Shown: positions 44,802-55,791 of the stretch, piece by piece
Layout of the letters: every line of letters starts with the position of its first letter
Numbering within the stretch: position 1 is the stretch's first letter
Assembly (NCBI RefSeq): GCF_003353015.1
Contig: NZ_QREM01000007.1
Coordinates: 340,586-404,585 of the forward strand
DNA length: 64,000 nt
Direction: 5' to 3'
Source of the DNA: Xanthomonas arboricola
GTDB lineage: Bacteria > Pseudomonadota > Gammaproteobacteria > Xanthomonadales > Xanthomonadaceae
Position numbers and translations under genes: made by a program
The notes under the pieces: generated by a model
Databases searched by the model: none
What the model saw: only the letters and a program-made list of their open reading frames with translations
Told to the model about the DNA's origin: nothing

Positions 44802-46418
44802 ATGTCTGCCACCGCATTTGCCCCACGTCCCACCGAACGCGCCACGCCCGGCCTGGCGCTGACCACCCAGGTCGCAGGCCAGGCGGAACTGCTGCCGGCC
44901 GCCTTGCTGGCCTTGCTGGTCTCGCTGCACCGCGCGATCGAGCCCGGCCGCCAGCAGCGCCTGGCCCGGCGGCGCGCCCGCCAGGCCGAATTCGACGCCG
45001 GCCAGCTGCCGGACTTCCGCCCCGACACCCAGGCCATCCGCGCTGGCGACTGGCGCGTGGCCGCATTGCCGGCGGCGCTGCAGGACCGCCGGGTGGAGAT
45101 CACCGGCCCCACCGATCCGAAGATGGTCATCAACGCGCTCAATTCCGGCGCCAAGGTGTTCATGGCCGACTTCGAGGATTCCACCGCGCCGACCTGGCGC
45201 AACCTGCTGGCCGGCCAGCGCACGCTGGCTGCCGCGGTGCGCGGCGATCTCAGCTTCGATGCGCCCAACGGCAAGCATTACGCGTTGCGCCCGGAAGCCG
45301 AGCGCGCAGTGCTGATCGTGCGTCCACGTGGCTGGCATCTGGATGAGAAGCACGTGCTCATCGACGGCCAGCCGCTGGCCGGGGGACTGTTCGACGCGGC
45401 GGTGTTCGCCTTCCATAACGGCCGCGCGCTGCTGGCCAAGGACCGTGGCCCGTACCTGTATCTGCCCAAGTTGCAGAGCATGGAAGAAGCCGCGCTGTGG
45501 GAGACCGCGCTGGCGCATATCGAAGCGATGCTCGGCCTGCCGCATGGCCAGATCAAGGTGACCGTGCTGATCGAGACGCTGCCGGCGGTGTTCGAGATGG
45601 ACGAGATCCTGCACGCATTGCGCGAGCGTATCGTCGGGCTCAATTGCGGCCGCTGGGACTACATCTTTTCGTACCTGAAAACCTTTCGTGCGCATCGCGA
45701 TCGCGTGCTGCCCGAACGTGGCCAGGTCACCATGACCCAGCCGTTCCTGAAGGCGTATTCGGAACTGTTGATCAAGACCTGCCATCGCCGCGGCGCGCAT
45801 GCGATGGGCGGCATGGCCGCGCAGATTCCGATCAATCACGACGAGGCCGCCAACGAGCAGGCAATGGCGCGGGTGCGTGCCGACAAGCTGCGCGAGGTCA
45901 GCGCCGGGCACGACGGCACCTGGGTGGCGCATCCGGCCTTGATTCCGGTGGCGATGAAGATCTTCGACGAGCACATGCCCACCGCGCATCAGCAGCATGT
46001 CCTGCGCAACGACGTGCAGGTGACGCGCGACATGCTGATCGCGCCGTCGCCGGGCACCGTCACCCGCGCCGGTTTCGAAGGCAATGTCGAAGTCTGCGTG
46101 CGTTACCTGGCCGCCTGGCTGGACGGCAATGGGTGCGTGCCGATCCACAACCTGATGGAAGACGCCGCCACTGCCGAGATCAGCCGCGCGCAGCTGTGGC
46201 AATGGTTGCATCACGGCCAGCACCTGGACGATGGCACCGCGATCGATCAGCCCTTGTTGCAGGCCACCTTGCGTACGTTGCCGGCACGCCTGGGCGCGAC
46301 CGATGCACTGCCGGGCGCCGCGCGCATCGACGAGGCCATTGCATTGCTGGACACCCTCAGCCGCGCCGATGCGCTGGCCGATTTCCTCACCGTGCCGGCA
46401 TATCGCCTGATCGACTGA
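44802..46418 (+). CDS. aceB: Malate synthase A
   Basis: 538 residues, close to the E. coli AceB length. It condenses glyoxylate with acetyl-CoA to malate in the glyoxylate cycle. The family signature [13 protein letters not shown] is near residue 120. [13 protein letters not shown] and RAQLWQW are also characteristic. aceA follows 178 bases downstream. Expression probably depends on the divergent LysR regulator. Confidence 0.97.
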
Positions 46419-46596
46419 GCCAACGCTGCAGCGACCCGCCGGCGTCCGCGCGCTGTCGCTGCAATCCATCAAGGTCATGCACCACACCGCCCGTTGCGCC
46501 GATGCGCGCAACGACGGCCTTGCCATGCGTCACGCACGCCGTGACGCGCCATCCTTCCTCGTTGCATCCGTCGTATCCCTGCCAGGAGAACGCATC

Positions 46597-47892
46597 ATGA
46601 GCAGCACACTGCAGACCGCCGAACAGATCCAGCACGACTGGGACAGCAATCCGCGCTGGGCCGGCATCACCCGCAACTACACCGCCGCCGATGTAGTGCG
46701 TTTGCGCGGCACCGTGCATGTCGAGCATTCGCTGGCGCGGCTGGGCGCGGACAAGTTGTGGAACGCCTTGCACGCCACGCCGTTCGTCAATGCACTGGGC
46801 GCATTGACCGGCAACCAGGCGATGCAGCAGGTCAAGGCCGGTTTGAAGGCGATCTACCTGTCGGGCTGGCAGGTCGCCGCCGATGCGAACCTGGCCGGGC
46901 AGATGTACCCGGACCAGTCGCTGTATCCGGCCGACTCGGTGCCGGCGGTGGTCAAGCGCATCAACAACACCTTGTTGCGGGCCGATCAACTGCATCACGC
47001 CGAAGGCAACGACGCCATCGACTTCCTGCAGCCGATCGTGGCCGATGCCGAAGCCGGCTTCGGCGGCGTGCTCAACGCCTTCGAGCTGATGAAGGCGATG
47101 ATCGAAGCCGGCGCGGCCGGCGTGCACTTCGAAGATCAGCTGGCATCGGTGAAGAAGTGCGGCCACATGGGCGGCAAGGTGCTGGTGCCCACCCGCGAGG
47201 CGATCGAAAAGTTGAATGCCGCGCGTCTGGCGGCCGATGTGCTGGGCGTGCCCACGCTGCTGATCGCGCGCACCGATGCCGAAGCCGCCGATCTGATCAC
47301 CAGCGACGTGGATGCCAACGACCAGCCCTTCACCACCGGCCAGCGCACCGTGGAAGGCTTCTTCAAGACCCGCAACGGGCTGGATCAGGCGATCAGCCGC
47401 GGGCTGGCCTATGCGCCGTACGCGGACCTGATCTGGTGCGAGACCGGCAAGCCGGACCTGGAATTTGCGCGCGCCTTTGCGCAAGCCATCCACGCCAGGT
47501 TCCCCGGCAAGTTGCTGGCCTACAACTGCTCGCCGAGCTTCAACTGGAAGAAGAACCTGGATGACGCCACCATCGCCAAATTCCAGACCGAGCTGGCGAG
47601 CTATGGCTACAAATTCCAGTTCATCACCCTGGCCGGTTTCCATGCGCTGAACTACGGCATGTTCAACCTGGCGCATGGCTACGCACGCCGCCAGATGAGC
47701 GCCTTCGTCGAGTTGCAGCAGGCCGAGTTCGCGGCGGCCGAGATGGGCTTCACTGCGGTCAAGCATCAGCGCGAGGTGGGCACCGGCTATTTCGACGCGG
47801 TCACGCAGGCGATCCAGCAGGGCCAGTCGTCCACCACCGCGCTGCGTGGCTCGACCGAGGAAGCGCAGTTCCACGGCGAAAAGGCAGCGTGA
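46597..47892 (+). CDS. aceA: Isocitrate lyase
   Basis: 431 residues. It cleaves isocitrate to succinate and glyoxylate. The catalytic loop KKCGHMGGK (Cys near residue 187) is present, and the flanking DQLASVKKC is typical. The SFNWKKNL segment near residue 313 also matches. GGAGA precedes the ATG. It completes the glyoxylate shunt with aceB. Confidence 0.97.
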
Positions 47893-48075: not shown

Positions 48076-48192
48076 CTGGCTCCGCTGCGATGTCTCTTAG
48101 GGAATGAGAATGAGTGTGACCTGGTGCTGAACAAAGCCCTGCTGTACGATGCCAAGGCAGGCCGGCGCTGCAGGTCGGTCTTAGGGATTTGG

Positions 48193-49269
48193 ATGACGTG
48201 CCATAACACTGCCGGCGCAGTGGAGCCGACGGGGAGCGTTGCAAAGACGCTGTCGGACGGTCTGCATGCGCTGATGACTGCCGAAGAACTGGCGTTTTTC
48301 GCCCGCTTTGGCCGCGCCCGCGAGTTGACTGCCGGTCAGGCGTTGTTCGAGCGCGGTGCGGTGGGCACGCAGATGTTCATCGTGGTCAGCGGCCAGATCG
48401 ATCTGGATTTCGGCGAAGACCTGATGCTCAAGCACCTGGGGCCGGGCGAATTCTTCGGCGAACTTGGCCTGCTGATCGGCGACCACGCGCGCAGCGCGGG
48501 CGCCAGTGCATCCACCGATACCCGCCTGATCGAGCTGGCGCACGAGGACTTCCAGCGCCTGGTCGATCACGACCCAGCGATGGTGGCGCATTTCCTGCGC
48601 CGCTCCATCGTGCGTGTGGTCAACAACGAGCAGTTGCTGATCCGCCAGTTACGCCGCCGCAACCACGATCTGGAAGCGGCGCTGGACAACCTCTACGTCA
48701 CTTCGCACCAGCTTAACCATACCGAAGAACTCAGCCGTACCGACGAGCTCACCGGCCTGCATAACCGCCGCGGGCTCGCCCTGCATCTGCAGGAATGCCG
48801 ACGCGTCGGCCGCGTGCCCGGCGTGGGCCTGATCCTGATCGACTGCGACCGTTTCAAGCGCATCAACGACGAATTCGGCCATCTGGCTGGCGACCGCGTG
48901 CTGCAGAACATCGCCCACGCGCTGCGCTCGGTGATCGCCGATGGCGACCTCGCCTGCAGACTGGGTGGCGACGAATTCTGCGTGCTGGTCGCGCAAGGCA
49001 CCCGGGAGCTGCTGCACCACATCGGCGAATGCATCGTGCGCGCGGTGGAAGCGCGCCTGTGCAACGGCCAGAGCGAGCAGGGCTGCTCGGTCAGCCTGGG
49101 TTTGTGCATGATCGACCCCGACGCGGCATGGAACGACTGGTACACGCTGGCCGACAGCGCGTTGTACGAGGCCAAGCGACAGGGCGGCAACGTGCTGTGC
49201 ATGCATGAAGCGCTGGCGTCGGGCCTCATGCCGCCATCCGGCAACGCCACCACGTCGGACAATCGCTGA
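48193..49269 (+). CDS. cNMP-binding diguanylate cyclase (XC_0249 type)
   Basis: 358 residues. A cyclic-nucleotide-binding domain (about 35-125, with GEFFGELGLLIGDHARSAGASA) is followed by a GGDEF domain; the active motif RLGGDEF is at 257-262 and the metal-binding SRTDELTGLHNRRGL at 181-195. The position of the usual inhibitory RxxD site reads ADGD, so feedback inhibition may be absent. In X. campestris the homologous protein binds cGMP and makes c-di-GMP. It lies four bases before the cyclase gene. Confidence 0.92.
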   Translation: MTCHNTAGAVEPTGSVAKTLSDGLHALMTAEELAFFARFGRARELTAGQALFERGAVGTQMFIVVSGQIDLDFGEDLMLKHLGPGEFFGELGLLIGDHARSAGASASTDTRLIELAHEDFQRLVDHDPAMVAHFLRRSIVRVVNNEQLLIRQLRRRNHDLEAALDNLYVTSHQLNHTEELSRTDELTGLHNRRGLALHLQECRRVGRVPGVGLILIDCDRFKRINDEFGHLAGDRVLQNIAHALRSVIADGDLACRLGGDEFCVLVAQGTRELLHHIGECIVRAVEARLCNGQSEQGCSVSLGLCMIDPDAAWNDWYTLADSALYEAKRQGGNVLCMHEALASGLMPPSGNATTSDNR

Positions 49270-49272
49270 GCA

Positions 49273-51765
49273 ATGAGCCCCCGCACCCACGCACGCAAGG
49301 ATGCGTCGTCGGAAGCGATCCAGGCGCCGCGCTTGCGCACCTTGTTGCTGACCGACCTGTGCGACTCGACCGCGCTGGTCGAACGCATCGGTGACAACGC
49401 TGCGGCCGCGTTGTTTCGCGAGCACGATCGGCTGGTGGTCAAACTGCAGCAGCAGTGGCGCGGCCGGCTGATCGACCGTTCGGACGGATTGCTGTTGCTG
49501 TTTGATCGCCCCATCGACGGCCTGGGCTTTGCGCTGGACTACGCACGCGGCCTCAAGGCGATGGGCGATGCCCGCGCGCTGACGCTGTGCGCCCGCCAGG
49601 GCCTGCACGTCGGCGAAGTGCTGACCTGGCGCAACAGCGACGAAGCGGTGAGCATCGGTGCCAAACCGCTGGAAGTCGAAGGCCTGGCCAAGCCCACCGC
49701 CGCACGCCTGATGTCGATGGCGCGGCCCGGGCAGATCCTGTTGTCGGCGGTGGCCGAGTCATTGACCCACCGCGCCGCACGCGAACTGGGCGACCGCGGC
49801 GAACGCATCCTGTGGAAATCCCACGGCCGCTGGCGCTTCAAGGGCGTCCCCACGCCAATGGAGATTTATGAAGTCGGCGAAGTCGGCCTGACGCCATTGC
49901 GCACGCCGAAGAATTCGGCGAAGGCCTGGCGCGATGTTCCGCTGTGGCGGCGGCCTGCGGCGTTGGCGACAGAGGTCGTATTGATTCTGGTCACGGCCGG
50001 CGTGCTCTGGTTCTTCGGACGTCCGGAACCTGCAATCGCATTTGCCGAGCGCGACTGGGTGGTGGTTGGCGATCTACATAATCTTACCGATACCCCGATG
50101 CTGGATGAGCCGTTGCAGCAAGCATTGCGGCTCAGTCTCCAGCAATCCAAGCACGTCAATCTGATCTCGGAGAAACGCGCGCACGACATGCTGGAACTGA
50201 TGAGGCAGAGTGACCTCGCCAAGGTCGATCGTGCACTCGGTGCACAGATAGCAATGCGCTCGGGAGCAAAGGCATTGATACTGCCAAGCGTGGCCGATGT
50301 TGGCGGAAACCTCCGATTCACGGTGGAGGTGATCGATCCGGCGACACAGGCAACGGTATACATGTACAAATCCGAAGGGCGCGGCCAGCGCACGCTGCTT
50401 TCATCCATCGACATCGTCAGTTCCAATCTACGTGAGGGACTCGGCGAAACACTCGCTTCCATCAAGGCAAACTCCGCCCCTCTTCCAAGCGTATCAACCG
50501 CAAATATGAATGCGTTGAACGCATATGCGCTTGGACAGCGCGAGTTTGGTGTCGGGCATTATCTGCGCGCACGCGACTACTACCTGCGGGCCGTGGAACT
50601 TGACCCGACGTTTGCATTGGCCAATGTAGGCGTTGCGCGTTGTTACTTCTATCTGGAGGACACCCCGGTCGGGTTGCCGTATCTCGAACGGGCCATCAGC
50701 TTTCGCGCCAAACTTCCACCGCGCGAGCAGGTGTACCTCGACGCGTGGTATGCGCAGATCAAGGACCCGGCAAACGCCTACGAGAAATGGATGCAGATGG
50801 CCAATCTGTATCCCGACGATTTTGCCGCAGCCGAAAACACGGCATACGCGTTGGAGGTACGCAATCGCTACAACGAGGCGCTTGTGTATGCCAAGCGCGC
50901 GGCATCGTCACGCTACGATTTTGATCCGCTTTCCCTGGAACTTGTCGGTCGGATGCAGTTGGCTTTGGGGAAAACCAGAGAAGCATTGGCGACGTTCCGC
51001 TCCGCCAGATCCTCAGGTCTAGCTTCAGCAGCGGTATGGGAAGCAGTCACCCTGGCGGTGATGGGTGACTTCCAGGGCGCGCATGCCATCTGGCCTGCAG
51101 AAGATCGCCTGGATGTGGCGTATTTCGATCAGGTTTCAATTTATCTTGACGAAAAACGCAGCGGAAAAGCACTTTCAGAGATAGAGCGCCTTTCCGGTGC
51201 GATTGATCATACATCGACGCGATACCGGCAATCACTGGTTGCAAAAGCTGCTACGCAGTATGCACAGGGAGACCACGCAGCGGCGCTGGCGACCATCAAT
51301 GAAACATTTCCTGCAGCCTTGTCGAGTATTGCAACGAGCGGAGCTGGTGTCACACAGCGCTCCGATGCAGTGGTTGCGGCATCTCTAGCGCTGCTGAGCC
51401 AGCGATTGGGACATACCGTTGCAGCCAACACAGTCCTCCAGGCCCTAACGGCCAGGCCGGAGCTGGCGAAGATGCCCTCGGTGGCCGAACAGATACTGTT
51501 ACTGCGCGCACGGGCGGCTCTTCTCGAAGGTCATGCCAATGAGGCCGTGCAGCTGCTGATGCCTCATCTTGATGGAACCGAAGCCTACCAGTACCACGTC
51601 GTTCTAAAGGAAGCTTATCTGGCCCTGGATGACAAGAACGCCGCATCCACCGAAACTAGATGGCTAAAAAATGCCCATGGCAGAGCGTATGCGGAGTTTG
51701 GTGGGTGCGGATGGTGTCAACAGCCAATGAACGTATTTGACGCAGCAATGGCTGGCGGCAAGTAA
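49273..51765 (+). CDS. Class III nucleotide cyclase with TPR domain (XC_0250 type)
   Basis: 830 residues. The N-terminal class III cyclase domain (about 20-200) has metal-binding Asp28 (LLLTDLCDST) and Asp71 (RSDGLLLLF), and the KPTAARLMSMARPGQILLS segment. A membrane helix lies at about 230-249. A large periplasmic or extracytoplasmic part contains a TolB-like region and TPR repeats, with Cys pairs at the end (FGGCGWCQQP). The X. campestris homologue makes cGMP read by the GGDEF neighbour. The 3' half is less GC-rich than the surroundings. Confidence 0.9.
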   Translation: MSPRTHARKDASSEAIQAPRLRTLLLTDLCDSTALVERIGDNAAAALFREHDRLVVKLQQQWRGRLIDRSDGLLLLFDRPIDGLGFALDYARGLKAMGDARALTLCARQGLHVGEVLTWRNSDEAVSIGAKPLEVEGLAKPTAARLMSMARPGQILLSAVAESLTHRAARELGDRGERILWKSHGRWRFKGVPTPMEIYEVGEVGLTPLRTPKNSAKAWRDVPLWRRPAALATEVVLILVTAGVLWFFGRPEPAIAFAERDWVVVGDLHNLTDTPMLDEPLQQALRLSLQQSKHVNLISEKRAHDMLELMRQSDLAKVDRALGAQIAMRSGAKALILPSVADVGGNLRFTVEVIDPATQATVYMYKSEGRGQRTLLSSIDIVSSNLREGLGETLASIKANSAPLPSVSTANMNALNAYALGQREFGVGHYLRARDYYLRAVELDPTFALANVGVARCYFYLEDTPVGLPYLERAISFRAKLPPREQVYLDAWYAQIKDPANAYEKWMQMANLYPDDFAAAENTAYALEVRNRYNEALVYAKRAASSRYDFDPLSLELVGRMQLALGKTREALATFRSARSSGLASAAVWEAVTLAVMGDFQGAHAIWPAEDRLDVAYFDQVSIYLDEKRSGKALSEIERLSGAIDHTSTRYRQSLVAKAATQYAQGDHAAALATINETFPAALSSIATSGAGVTQRSDAVVAASLALLSQRLGHTVAANTVLQALTARPELAKMPSVAEQILLLRARAALLEGHANEAVQLLMPHLDGTEAYQYHVVLKEAYLALDDKNAASTETRWLKNAHGRAYAEFGGCGWCQQPMNVFDAAMAGGK

Positions 51766-51793
51766 AACAATGCTTACCTGCCACCACGCGCCA

Positions 51794-52105
51794 TCATTTC
51801 TTGAGTTGTGGGGAGGATCCCGATGGAACATTCAGCCGAATTGGTTGCATGTTGGCCGCGGAGGTCAGGCTGGCGTAGATGTCATCACGTGCCTGCGCAA
51901 TGGTGGCCTTGTCTGCCAGCTTTTCTACTTTGAGCTGCGACGCAAGCTGGTCGATGTCTTCTGCTAAGTGGCCTACCTGTAAGAGGGCGGCTTTGGGATC
52001 GTTTTTGAATAGCTCGCGGAACTGATCATCAGTTGCCAGTAGATCCAATAGCCTATGCGCAACCTCCGGCTTCAGTGGGGTAGGGCGCTTGTCTGTCTCG
52101 GTCAT
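51794..52105 (-). CDS. Putative RiPP precursor with nitrile-hydratase-leader-like N-terminus
   Basis: 103 residues from ATG 52105 (a TTG at 52132 could extend it). The N-terminal part RLLDLLATDDQFRELFKNDPKAALLQVG is the NHLP/putative-modified-peptide leader pattern. The second part has KLADKATIAQARDDIYASL and a short hydrophilic tail PIRLNVPSGSSPQLKK. There is no Cys anywhere; possible modification sites are Ser and Thr in the tail. It is divergent from the SagB-like gene, 79 bases away. The assignment rests on pattern and context. Confidence 0.7.
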   Translation of the reverse strand: MTETDKRPTPLKPEVAHRLLDLLATDDQFRELFKNDPKAALLQVGHLAEDIDQLASQLKVEKLADKATIAQARDDIYASLTSAANMQPIRLNVPSGSSPQLKK

Positions 52106-52184
52106 GCTCGTCAACGGTGAGGAAGTCTTCAAGAAATCTAATTCCTGACCGTTAGAAGATCAATCTAAAGATGAGTGTTGAAGC

Positions 52185-53363
52185 ATGCGGGTGAGGCGCT
52201 GTGCGGTTGTCTATCTTGAGCCGAGAGAATCCATAGAGATTGACCTTGCCGATCTTTGTGCCGGAGGCTCGGGCGCTTCGCGAATGCAGCGTTGGGTTGC
52301 GCTCGCTCCGCATCTGGACTCGGAATGTGTGGTGACCGAGGCAGAGATACTGGTACTGGGCCGCCTCAGTCCGAGCCAATGGCAGGAGGGGGACACGGCC
52401 GGAGAGGTTGCGACTGTCAAAGCACTGGCGGAAAAGGGTTTGCTGTTGACGGATGATTCGAGCGCTCATCTGGCACAGCAGCGTGATGCCGTGCAGCGCA
52501 AGAGCCAGTGGCATCCGCTTGCAGCCACCTATCATGCGTTCACGCGCTGGAACGATGTTGACTCTGCGCAGGCCGCAAAGGATGCTGGAGCCGAAACAGC
52601 AGCCGCATTGCTCAAGACCTTCGGACCACCACCTCCCGAGCAGATCCTGCGTGGTACGGCCGAGCAGATCTGCCTTCCGCGTGCCGTCGACGGCTATCTG
52701 GATACCGTGTTACGTCGGCGGACGACGTGCAGGAACTTTGATGCCGACGCACGCATGGAGCATGCAGTTTTCGCAAAAATCATGGAGCGGACCTTTGCGG
52801 CAAATGCTCTGCTTGAAGCAGATGCAGAGACCGTTTTCCTGAAGCGCTCAAGTCCATCGGGAGGCGGGCTGCATCCGTTGGATGCGTATCTCTTCATCAG
52901 AAATGTGTCGGGCCTTGCAGACGGGATCTATCACTATCTCCCGATCAATCACGCCCTTGAGCCGCTGAACGTCGATGTGCCGGATCTGCAGGGTGTGGCG
53001 CTAGGCATTCTGGCTGGGCAGGATTGGTTCGCCAACGCGCACGTGATCGTTGCGCTATGCCCGCGCTACTACCGCAACTTCTGGAAGTACCGCATGCATG
53101 CTAAAGCGTACCGGGCACTTGCCTTGGAAGCGGGCCATTTTTCCCAAACGCTTTACATCGCAGCGACAGATCTGGGATTGGGGGCTTTCGTCACCTGTGC
53201 GATCAACGAAATCCAGGTCGAAGCACTGCTTGGACTTGAACCGATCATGGAAGGTGTCCTGGCAATTTGTGGGTTCGGTATGCGCGGTGACGTCATGGAG
53301 ACGATGGAACTGGATCCAAACAACGAGGTGTGGGCCTGCAACCAGTTTTTCGCAGATAATTGA
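52185..53363 (+). CDS. SagB-like putative peptide maturation dehydrogenase
   Basis: 392 residues. The C-terminal half is an FMN nitroreductase fold of the SagB type: RRTTCRNFDADA near residue 178, SSPSGGGLHPLDAYLF near residue 224, and NQFF near the end. The N-terminal half (about 1-150) may recognise the leader. This type occurs beside NHLP-like peptides in Xanthomonadaceae. SagB enzymes oxidise azoline rings to azoles in partnership with YcaO proteins, but no YcaO is present here, so its reaction is uncertain. Starts at ATG 52185. Confidence 0.82.
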   Translation: MRVRRCAVVYLEPRESIEIDLADLCAGGSGASRMQRWVALAPHLDSECVVTEAEILVLGRLSPSQWQEGDTAGEVATVKALAEKGLLLTDDSSAHLAQQRDAVQRKSQWHPLAATYHAFTRWNDVDSAQAAKDAGAETAAALLKTFGPPPPEQILRGTAEQICLPRAVDGYLDTVLRRRTTCRNFDADARMEHAVFAKIMERTFAANALLEADAETVFLKRSSPSGGGLHPLDAYLFIRNVSGLADGIYHYLPINHALEPLNVDVPDLQGVALGILAGQDWFANAHVIVALCPRYYRNFWKYRMHAKAYRALALEAGHFSQTLYIAATDLGLGAFVTCAINEIQVEALLGLEPIMEGVLAICGFGMRGDVMETMELDPNNEVWACNQFFADN

Positions 53364-53490
53364 AATGCAGTGTGGTGGCGGCCGCACAAGGTCGTCGGCA
53401 TCGCGCTAGTACTCCGGACTCAAACAGGACTGGTAGATCTGATCGTTCTGTATCGATCAATGCTCAGCACGCATTGACAGATGGCGAGGA

Positions 53491-53549
53491 GGCAATACCT
53501 GTCTAGGCAGGACCGGCGGCCAAGCCGCCGGTCCCCCCGACAATACCTG
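53491..53549. repeat. Hairpin flanked by direct repeats
   Basis: A perfect 11-bp stem (53510-53520 with 53524-53534) with a 3-base loop lies between GGCAATACCTG (53491-53501) and GACAATACCTG (53539-53549). It may be a terminator for the SagB-like gene or a small REP/MITE-like insert. A C6 run follows the stem instead of Ts. Confidence 0.6.
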
Positions 53550-53604: not shown

Positions 53605-55689
53605 CTACCGCCGAATCGCCTGCGTATGCGTCTTCAACGCTTCGCTCAGGCCGTTCACCTTGTCGGCGCCTTCCGGCACGGTGATGCTGGAGCCGGCCAG
53701 GTCGTTGCCGATCGGTTGCACGCGGCCGCCCAGGCACTGGCCCAGGAACCCCTCGGTCACGGCGTTGAAGGCCTTGCTGTTTTCCGGGCGCCGGAAGCCG
53801 TGGCCTTCGTCCGGGAACAGCACGTAGGTGACTGGAATGTTCTTGGCCTTCATCGCGTTGACGATCTGGTCGCTCTCGGCCTGTTTGACGCGTGGGTCGT
53901 TGGCGCCCTGGCCGATCAGCAGCGGCTTGCTGATCTTGTCGACATGGGTGAGCGGTGAGCGTTCGGCCAGCCACTGCTTGCCGGCCTCGGTGGCCGGGTC
54001 GCCCATGCGCTTGGTCAGCTGCTTGTAGAAGCTGGCCCAGTAGGGCGGCACGGTGCCGAGCAGGGTATTGAGGTTGGCCGGGCCGACGATGTCCACGCCG
54101 CACTTGAACGCGTCGGGGGTAAAGGTCAGGCCGACCAGCGTGGCGTAGCCGCCGTAGCTGCCGCCCATGATCGCCACGTCCTCGGGCCTGGTCACTCCCT
54201 GCTTGACCGCCCATTGCACCGCGTCGAGCAGGTCGTCGTGCATCTTGGCGGCCCACTCGCCGTTGCCGGCATTGGTGAAGGCCTTGCCGAAGCCGGTGGA
54301 GCCGCGGAAGTTCACCGCCAGCACCGCATAGCCGCGATTGGCCAGCCATTGCTCATACGGCCCGTAGCCGTAGCTGTCGCGCGCCCACGGGCCGCCATGC
54401 ACGAACAGCACCAGCGGCACCGGCTTGTCGGCCTTGCCGTCGTGATTGGCATCGGCCTCGGCGGGCAGGGTGAGATAGCTGACCAGCTTGAGGCCGTCGC
54501 GGGCGGTCAGTTCCTGCGGCCACATCGGCACCAGCGGCTTGCCGTCGAGCGCGGGGCGGGCGGAGAACAACTTGGTCAGCTTGCCGCCGTCTGCACGGTC
54601 GTAGCGGTAGTAGGTCAGCGGTGTTTCCGCCGCCGAATACCCCACGATCCAGATGCGATCGTCGAGCGTGCGTGCGGCAACGCTGGCATCGCCGCTGCCG
54701 AGCGACCTGAGCTTGTGCAGGTCGCCGGCAATGCCGGTGTCCAGCGCCGTCCACTCCTCGCGCAGGTAGTCGCTGGACACCGCCTGCACCACGCCGGTCC
54801 TGGGGTCGTTCAAGGTGGCGCCGACATCGGTGCGCGGGTTTTCGAACAGCAGCGTGCGGGCGTTGCTGGCAGTGTCGATGGCATACAGCGCTGCGGTGTC
54901 GCGATTGCGCGAATCCTGCATGTAGAGCGTCTTGCCGTCGTCGGTCAGGCCGTCGGGCGAGGTGTTGCTGACATCCTCGAACGGGATGCGGTCCACGCTC
55001 TTCCAGCGCTTGCCGTCCGGCACCAGCAGCTCCCTGCCCGCATCGTCGGTGGCGCGCGTGGCATAGCGCAGCTGGTAGTTGCCATCGAGCAGGTAGGAAT
55101 CCAGGCTGTCGGTGTTCTGCTGCACCAGGCTGCGCTTGCCCGAGGCCAGGTCCACCCGATACAGGTCATGCCATTTGGGGTCGCGGTCGTTCATGCCGAC
55201 CATGATCGAGTCGGGGTGCTGCGCGCTGACGCGATACACCTCGGCGTTGGTCTTCTTGAACGGGGTGAGGTCCTTGCTGCTGCCATCGCCCAGATTCACC
55301 GAGAACAGATGGAAGTCTTCATCGCCCCCGTTGTCGCGCAGGTACAGCAGCGTGTTGGGTTGATAGGTCCAGAAATAAGTGCGGATGCCGCGTGCGGTGT
55401 CCTTGGTGATCGCGCGTGCCTGGTCCGGCGCATCCACCGGGGCGACCCAGACATTGAGCACACCGTCCAGCGGCGCGACCCAGCTGAGGTACTTGCCGCC
55501 CGGGCTGATGCTCACGTTCGCCCGCTCCGGGTTGCCGAACAGCGCATCGCGGGTGATCAGTCCGGGTGGCGCCGCGGGTGCCGCAGCAGCCGGGGCCGGT
55601 GCGGCGGCCTTGTCGCTGGCAGGCGCGGCTTTGTCGCTGCAGGCGGACAGCGCGAGCAGCATGCTGGAAACAACAAGCAGGCGTTTCAT
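53605..55689 (-). CDS. S9-family peptidase lipoprotein
   Basis: 694 residues. The lipobox is at LLALSAC (Cys17), so the protein is exported and lipid-anchored. An N-terminal beta-propeller-like region rich in D-R-D and Gly-Asp motifs is followed by an alpha/beta hydrolase: nucleophile Ser in GGSYGGYA, the acid Asp in GANDPRV, and His in DEGHGFRRPENS. It cleaves proline-containing or other oligopeptides. The start at 55689 is chosen for the signal peptide; the frame continues upstream. Confidence 0.92.
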   Translation of the reverse strand: MKRLLVVSSMLLALSACSDKAAPASDKAAAPAPAAAAPAAPPGLITRDALFGNPERANVSISPGGKYLSWVAPLDGVLNVWVAPVDAPDQARAITKDTARGIRTYFWTYQPNTLLYLRDNGGDEDFHLFSVNLGDGSSKDLTPFKKTNAEVYRVSAQHPDSIMVGMNDRDPKWHDLYRVDLASGKRSLVQQNTDSLDSYLLDGNYQLRYATRATDDAGRELLVPDGKRWKSVDRIPFEDVSNTSPDGLTDDGKTLYMQDSRNRDTAALYAIDTASNARTLLFENPRTDVGATLNDPRTGVVQAVSSDYLREEWTALDTGIAGDLHKLRSLGSGDASVAARTLDDRIWIVGYSAAETPLTYYRYDRADGGKLTKLFSARPALDGKPLVPMWPQELTARDGLKLVSYLTLPAEADANHDGKADKPVPLVLFVHGGPWARDSYGYGPYEQWLANRGYAVLAVNFRGSTGFGKAFTNAGNGEWAAKMHDDLLDAVQWAVKQGVTRPEDVAIMGGSYGGYATLVGLTFTPDAFKCGVDIVGPANLNTLLGTVPPYWASFYKQLTKRMGDPATEAGKQWLAERSPLTHVDKISKPLLIGQGANDPRVKQAESDQIVNAMKAKNIPVTYVLFPDEGHGFRRPENSKAFNAVTEGFLGQCLGGRVQPIGNDLAGSSITVPEGADKVNGLSEALKTHTQAIRR

Positions 55690-55791
55690 GGAGGTCTCCG
55701 GTCTGGGGTGCGGCCAGTCCAGCCGCTTGGTCCACGCTAGGGCCAAGGTCCGTCCCTGCGAACGTGCCGTTGGTCACGCCGCGCTGCGCCG

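Follow-up and report, generated by a model that had tools for sequence, protein, structure and literature searches.

Two described systems are close to the locus analyzed here. The first is the cyclic GMP (cGMP) pathway of Xanthomonas campestris, in which cGMP is made by XC_0250, a class III cyclase with TPRs, and activates the linked XC_0249, a protein that combines a cyclic nucleotide monophosphate (cNMP)-binding domain with a GGDEF domain; the activated protein makes cyclic-di-GMP, with effects on biofilm formation and virulence (An et al. 2013, PMC3770947). What the cyclase senses is not named in the abstract, the Discussion or the first half of the Results of that paper, and a term search of it yields no mention of peptide genes next to XC_0250/XC_0249. 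The second is the ComQXPA system of Bacillus, where the modifier, the precursor and the sensor part of the receptor covary, ComX and the N-terminal half of ComP being variable, and the cytoplasmic output domain (PMC4008528) and the effector are conserved (PMC4008528, PMC4408185). Here we analyze a locus in a stretch of 64,000 nucleotides from Xanthomonas arboricola (contig NZ_QREM01000007.1, positions 340,586 to 404,585; hereinafter, the window), in which the genes for a putative peptide precursor and a SagB-like flavin dehydrogenase adjoin a cyclase and a cNMP-GGDEF protein of the XC_0250/XC_0249 type (Table 1).

The sequence-only reading of this DNA described a minimal ribosomally synthesized and post-translationally modified peptide (RiPP)-like locus, with a small cysteine-free protein of 103 residues divergent from a SagB-like gene, 79 bp between the two start codons and cGMP genes alongside; all these elements are indeed present. 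It also assigned the two proteins to named families, and a hidden Markov model search places both above the curated cut-offs: the small protein in TIGR04509, described in NCBIfam as an NHLP-related RiPP peptide (84.7 bits; cut-off 34), and the enzyme in TIGR04511 (495.3 bits; cut-off 240) as well as in the SagB family TIGR03605 (118.1 bits; cut-off 78.4). The cyclase belongs to TIGR04510, the 'putative peptide modification system cyclase' of NCBIfam (1096.6 bits; cut-off 400). Three adjacent proteins, each far above its cut-off, thus make up the TIGR04509/04510/04511 set, and three of the four genes at the locus already bear the names of one putative system. Among 250 genomes of the order (an even draw from a larger group), above-cut-off matches to each of the three families are confined to one identical set of 57, which rules out chance co-occurrence. 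The notion of a two-gene system does not hold because the cyclase is part of the same named set and is present in all 57 genomes. The broader RiPP-like interpretation survives with respect to the families, the missing YcaO and the cGMP link; the joint variation of the cyclase sensor half, the precursor and SagB was overlooked. The NCBIfam names imply no signal, receptor or polymorphism; what is new here is that the set is tied to the cGMP pathway and that the sensor half is swapped. In the open-licence literature, we found no publication on this system by its NCBIfam names or accessions, and none that joins XC_0250/XC_0249 with a peptide or a pheromone with cyclic GMP.

The membrane/TPR half of the cyclase, the precursor and SagB almost certainly constitute a polymorphic cassette that is swapped between conserved flanks. 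In the comparison with X. arboricola pv. juglandis (L196), isocitrate lyase and the GGDEF protein are each 98% identical and the catalytic domain of the cyclase 100%; for the cassette proteins, the values are 30% (TPR part), 33% (precursor) and 45% (SagB). Alignment of the DNA with L196, X. euroxanthea (L169) and X. arboricola pv. populi (L165) shows 90-100% identity in most 150-bp segments up to approximately position 49850, with a few, mostly intergenic segments at 66-88%. The last aligned base is 50361, 50163 and 50163, and the alignment resumes at 53606, 53511 and 53511, respectively; the one exception inside the cassette is a 305-bp match at 66% to L196 within SagB. Hence the cassette has sharp DNA edges, the right one shortly behind SagB in the three pairs plotted. 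The sister genomes G241 and G170 show 97.2% and 98.8% DNA identity on the two sides and no match across the 3.5 kb in between, and the strand of SagB differs between them. The GC content of the window cassette is 56.4%, compared to 65.0-67.3% in the flanks.

To quantify the coupling, we compared the distances between the respective proteins over 99 loci (127 loci with precursor, SagB and cyclase, reduced to 107 that are complete with a single-copy SagB and then to 99 unique by cyclase; at loci with several precursors, the best-scoring one was taken). Both precursor and SagB distances track the TPR part of the cyclase (r = 0.75 each), and the catalytic-domain distances track the GGDEF protein (0.86). 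With the distances of the GGDEF protein and of isocitrate lyase, the second left-flank gene, held constant as controls, the partial correlations with the TPR part are 0.68 for the precursor and 0.70 for SagB, values reached by none of 999 permutations; with the catalytic domain, they are 0.13 and 0.15, reached by 2 and 20 of 999 permutations, respectively. The partial correlation with the precursor varies along the cyclase, at 0.07-0.14 through residue 240, approximately 0.3 over residues 261-400, and 0.41-0.54 from residue 381 on; that with SagB is less even, with peaks of 0.61 at 261-320 and 0.68 at the very end. As a linkage control, we used the S9 peptidase gene beyond SagB, which was found in 29 loci (its adjacency to SagB being established for the window). 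Its distances track the catalytic domain (0.91); the partial correlations with the precursor, SagB and the TPR part are between -0.04 and 0.06, compared to 0.89 for precursor and TPR part in the same loci; for two more downstream genes (41 and 8 loci), the partial correlations range from -0.18 to 0.10. Thus, the genes downstream of SagB vary independently of the cassette.

Within the genus, 29 of the 35 genomes searched encode an ortholog of the GGDEF protein (86-97% identity to the query domain). After exclusion of one genome with a broken locus (G279), 28 congeneric genomes with an unbroken cyclase remain, two of which, with a truncated SagB, were left out of the SagB medians. At a threshold of 55% identity, which is our choice, these genomes fall into six cassette types (15, 6, 4, 1, 1 and 1 genomes). 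The TPR identity is below 40% in 248 of the 378 pairs, above 50% in 130, and between 40 and 50% in none; no pair has catalytic domains less than 83% identical. Same-type and different-type pairs hardly differ in the GGDEF protein (0.95 vs 0.94) but differ sharply in the precursor (0.79 vs 0.33) and SagB (0.84 vs 0.46). On the tree of GGDEF plus catalytic DNA, at least 11 type switches are required, with a possible minimum of 5; shuffled type labels yield a mean of 12.15 and a lowest value of 8, that is, the types are scattered nearly at random over the congeneric tree. The best match outside the genus beats the best congener of another type for the TPR part and SagB in 21 of 21 Xanthomonas loci and for the precursor in 20 of 21, and for the catalytic domain in none, several of these 21 non-independent loci being of one type. 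The same threshold applied to all 99 loci gives 59 types. A close ortholog of the GGDEF protein is absent in six of the 35 genomes (G215, G263, G270, G271, G280 and G281); G215 has no match to any of the three families, so the system can be absent.

The precursors follow the same division. In 153 between-type pairs with catalytic domains at least 90% identical, the median identity is 0.47 for the leader and 0.18 for the tail; in 81 within-type pairs, it is 0.81 and 0.80. This suggests a shared leader combined with a type-specific core, as expected of such a precursor, and the C-terminal tails, which the sequence-only reading had singled out for comparison, turn out to be conserved within cassette types.

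On the conserved side of the locus, the window encodes the same kind of pair as X. campestris, with the same gene neighbors: a class III cyclase with TPRs and an adjacent cNMP-GGDEF protein, so that it belongs with XC_0250/XC_0249 by architecture and close orthology; the cyclases differ in length (886 aa in XC_0250 and 830 aa in the window). The window cNMP domain is identical in 121 of 129 positions (our own count from the alignment) to PDB chain 5h5o_A, which we take to be the cNMP domain of XC_0249; the structure entry of the published study itself is 4KG1 (PMC3770947). By analogy with the X. campestris system, synthesis of cGMP and a cGMP-activated diguanylate cyclase are predicted for the window strain. 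In the structural model of the cyclase (pLDDT 88.1, pTM 0.65), the catalytic domain is followed by one membrane helix, then by an alpha/beta domain and a TPR superhelix, and a hydropathy peak at the membrane helix is found in 98 of the 99 cyclase orthologs. With the catalytic domain necessarily in the cytoplasm, the TPR part is expected in the periplasm. Most fold matches of the cyclase are to the catalytic domain; those of the TPR part (Tom71, APC6 and TTC7B) suggest no more than a TPR superhelix. A C-terminal cysteine pair of the window cyclase was considered as a redox sensor and rejected because the pair is not conserved.

Given that the modifier, the peptide and the sensor half covary and the output half and effector are conserved, as in ComQXPA, we propose that the locus is a pheromone-receptor cassette. 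The likeness is in the mode of operation, not membership: the two systems have no homologous parts, with an isoprenyl transferase and a histidine kinase in ComQXPA, and a flavin dehydrogenase and a guanylate cyclase, proteins of other families, in the window. We infer the modification chemistry, the export, the periplasmic location, the ligand-receptor binding and the type specificity as parts of the following scheme. The SagB-like flavoenzyme would bind the leader of the precursor and oxidize its C-terminal tail without a cyclodehydratase; the mature tail would reach the periplasm by a route not encoded at the locus and bind its cognate transmembrane cyclase at the TPR sensor; the resulting shift in cGMP output would act on the cNMP-GGDEF protein and thereby change cyclic-di-GMP. 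With modifier, peptide and sensor half exchanged as one block, discrete signal types would arise, and the peptide would putatively activate the receptor of its own type only, as in the ComQXPA pherotypes. That the peptide acts through the cyclase is probable. Our confidence that the locus is a polymorphic peptide-signaling cassette on a conserved cGMP pathway is moderate, and the chances that the peptide is a secreted, type-specific pheromone appear evenly balanced.

Several observations weigh against this proposal. The precursor, SagB and the TPR half are contiguous, so that the block could move jointly without any interaction. The coupling is also not uniformly tight: no pair with at least 55% TPR identity has a precursor below 50% or SagB below 60%, but there are 69 pairs with SagB at 65% or more and 7 pairs with the precursor at 60% or more in which TPR identity is below 40%. 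The loci L145 and L154 share 99% identity in the catalytic domain, 92% in SagB and 82% in the precursor but only 39% in the TPR part; their cyclases are nearly identical up to about residue 350 and then range from 13 to 77% per 30 residues. L145 has two precursors, and the second one led to no matching TPR relative. Together, these pairs indicate that the sensor can change faster than, or apart from, its neighbors. SagB is truncated in two congeneric genomes (L244 in G262 and L245 in G285), and in L247 (G279), both the cyclase and SagB are fragmented. Biofilm formation of the published mutant was restored by the catalytic domain alone, so the sensor is dispensable for basal activity (PMC3770947). 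No further family that could represent an exporter or an extra modifying enzyme is constantly found beside the cassette in the clustered flanks of 58 regions, and the window genome has no match to the C39 peptidase (PF03412), for which 38 of the 57 carriers have one. Finally, six actinobacterial genomes carry the precursor and SagB without any TIGR04510 match in the genome, so the peptide has a role independent of this cyclase.

The contiguity and the looser pairs, L145/L154 among them, are what one would expect if phage, host or other cues diversify the exposed sensor and the adjacent precursor and SagB merely travel along, in which case the peptide need not be the ligand. We consider such hitch-hiking unlikely given the strict co-occurrence of the three families, the position of the right edge just behind SagB with the next genes varying independently, and the tails that are type-specific and conserved within types. 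Moreover, a cyclase-less TPR copy is retained beside SagB at two loci, where SagB is directly followed by another TIGR04510-like protein that lacks the cyclase domain (profile positions 206/208-810) (L090:10028-11830 and L108:9768-11564). Linkage of the block as the whole explanation is weakened by the downstream-gene control, the steps in correlation along the cyclase and the within-type conservation of the tails.

Alternatively, the modified peptide could be mainly a bacteriocin-like weapon or competition marker, with types generated in an arms race and the cyclase sensor detecting the self peptide or competitors to switch behavior. Discrete types, low GC and frequent swapping, all of which are seen in the cassette, are usual for antagonism loci. 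Furthermore, more than one precursor is present at 14 of the 80 named loci (the best 80 of 331 loci from a scan of named genomes with the SagB alignment), with nine in L114, and precursor-SagB pairs occur alone in Streptomyces and Kribbella. This scenario is nevertheless quite unlikely because the clustered neighborhoods contain no recurrent immunity or export gene at the cassette, and the cassette occupies one fixed core site across many genera, welded to a regulator. L114 (G235:C2) is an expanded cluster, with ten precursor-family open reading frames (ORFs) by our own profile (nine by TIGR04509) alongside five SagB-like and two cyclase matches within 20 kb. At the actinobacterial loci (L139, L142, L146, L147, L152 and L158, from Streptomyces and Kribbella), the precursor or precursors and SagB are at 46-50% identity; L146 has five precursors, and MFS-like genes, identified by eye, lie beside the precursor-SagB pairs in L146 and L147. 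These carriers cannot be counted as YcaO-free given that five of the six genomes have YcaO elsewhere.

A third possibility is that the small protein stays unmodified and acts as a folded partner or a substrate mimic in the regulation of SagB or the cyclase, with redox or a small molecule made by SagB as the true signal. The match to TIGR04509 identifies an NHLP-related leader, but the window precursor lacks a GG-type cleavage motif, so that the combination of a GG cleavage site with a C39 peptidase exporter, which characterizes NHLP-type precursors, is absent from the window genome. Together with the lack of an exporter at the locus and the diversity of the tails, which have no single modifiable residue common to all, this would suit a folded partner. 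The leader plus variable-tail pattern and the kinship of SagB over its full length with peptide and nonribosomal peptide synthetase (NRPS) azoline oxidases make that option improbable.

The best PDB matches of the SagB structural model (pLDDT 93.3) are BmdC, ThcOx and McbC, all of them azoline oxidases. These rank ahead of ordinary nitroreductases, bearing out the SagB-like identity proposed earlier; the alignments with BmdC, labeled an NRPS oxidase in the PDB listing, and with ThcOx are near full length, and that with McbC spans residues 99-369. Together, the TIGR03605 match and the SagB/McbC-like fold make the window protein a SagB-type enzyme. The W300-K301-Y302 motif, common to ThcOx as W-K-Y, is invariant in two SagB alignments (38 and 58 sequences). 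FMN-dependent peptide dehydrogenase activity is putative for the window enzyme. Judging from their secondary structure and the PDB matches, the N-terminal strands and helices of SagB may represent a candidate leader-binding domain of the RiPP recognition element (RRE) type; binding of structured NHLP leaders to an RRE is known for a YcaO enzyme (PMC12455567).

The absence of YcaO from the window genome, suspected in the sequence-only reading, was borne out by a genome search, and YcaO is also missing in 53 of the 56 other carriers (54 of 57 with the window); the other three have it on a different contig. In nearly all carriers, therefore, the enzyme must work without a YcaO cyclodehydratase, a difference from the SagB, McbC, ThcOx and BmdC azoline oxidases. 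The window locus is not classed with thiazole/oxazole-modified microcins or linear azole-containing peptides (TOMM/LAP) because the required cyclodehydratase is absent from the genome. As noted before, classical conversion of cysteine to thiazole is impossible for the window precursor, which has no cysteine. This trait pertains to the window type rather than to the family: only 15 of the 99 loci, the window included, have a cysteine-free precursor, and 34 have a cysteine in the last 26 residues. A conventional azole, with an unrelated heterocyclase from elsewhere cyclizing Ser, Thr or Cys and SagB oxidizing the product, would agree with the azoline oxidases as best matches and with Ser or Thr in the last 26 residues at 98 of the 99 loci, but is very improbable in view of the YcaO distribution and because no other candidate family recurs at the locus (the flanking genes were clustered, not individually annotated). 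Without an azoline former, our guess is an oxidation such as Calpha-Cbeta dehydrogenation of the tail. AlbAB performs Calpha-Cbeta dehydrogenation. This cyclodipeptide oxidase has the same fold and aligns only from residue 169 of the SagB model onward; it is a filament acting on cyclodipeptides, and the likeness is unspecific because ordinary nitroreductases reach similar Z values.

The gene arrangement is largely conserved. Across 58 regions (57 from the other 56 carrier genomes, plus the window), the GGDEF gene is usually followed by the cyclase, then by the precursor in opposite orientation, and then by SagB; in six genomes (G033, G067, G131, G170, G190 and G249), SagB shares its strand with a shorter precursor. 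The GGDEF protein is matched strongly in 50 of these 58 regions and in 66 of the 80 named loci, some of both being cut by contig ends. All 80 named loci have a precursor-family ORF, and in 79 the nearest such ORF upstream of SagB is on the opposite strand. An isocitrate-lyase gene adjoins the cassette in 112 of the loci searched, indicating one fixed core site in many genera. When the flanking ORFs of the 58 regions were clustered and laid out, the most recurrent component besides the cassette was on the left-flank side (a malate-synthase cluster, in 46 regions); some unidentified ORF clusters are present in many regions at varying distance. For the precursor, an upstream TTG start at 52132 (112 aa) was rejected because three of five close relatives (L119, L120 and L121) have gaps between the TTG and the ATG. 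The segment at 52153-52166 between precursor and SagB (AGATTGATCTTCTA, minus strand) is almost constant in six same-type loci and is possibly a shared regulatory site.

Table 1. Features of the locus and its flanks, in coordinates of the window
Feature	Position	Strand	Comment
Malate synthase and isocitrate lyase genes, conserved left flank	44802..47892	plus	named by eye
cNMP-binding GGDEF protein, conserved flank	48124..49269	plus	predicted downstream effector
Class III cyclase, TIGR04510	49273..51765	plus	830 aa; TPR sensor, single membrane helix
Conserved catalytic half of the cyclase (residues 1-200)	49273..49872	plus	100% identical to X. arboricola pv. juglandis
Swappable low-GC cassette	49873..53510		left edge uncertain
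Predicted membrane helix of the cyclase (residues 228-249)	49954..50019	plus	
Variable sensor half of the cyclase	50053..51753	plus	alpha/beta domain (261-396), TPR superhelix (412-827)
Putative precursor, TIGR04509	51794..52105	minus	ATG at 52105; 103 aa; no Cys
Parts of the precursor			leader, approximately residues 10-45; linker, 46-60; conserved LA-K helix, 61-81; type-specific tail, 82-103
Divergent intergenic region, precursor/SagB	52106..52184		79 bp between start codons
SagB-like flavin dehydrogenase, TIGR04511	52185..53363	plus	392 aa
S9-type peptidase, right flank	53605..55746	minus	named by eye; linkage control

Taken as a whole, the locus may represent a new class of Gram-negative cell-cell signaling, a suggestion that we make tentatively and with somewhat less than even confidence: a ribosomal peptide, modified by SagB independently of YcaO, would serve as a type-specific pheromone for a transmembrane guanylate cyclase and convey kin identity through cGMP to cyclic-di-GMP, with pherotypes swapped as an approximately 3.5-kb cassette whose left edge lies inside the receptor gene and whose related types occur across genera. 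The peptide is a candidate signal for the bacterial cGMP pathway that is exchanged together with the cyclase sensor. If the proposal is true, SagB-type enzymes would be put to use in a new peptide chemistry that needs no cyclodehydratase, and the cassette would show how receptors evolve by modules in nature, with breakpoints recurring between output and sensor.
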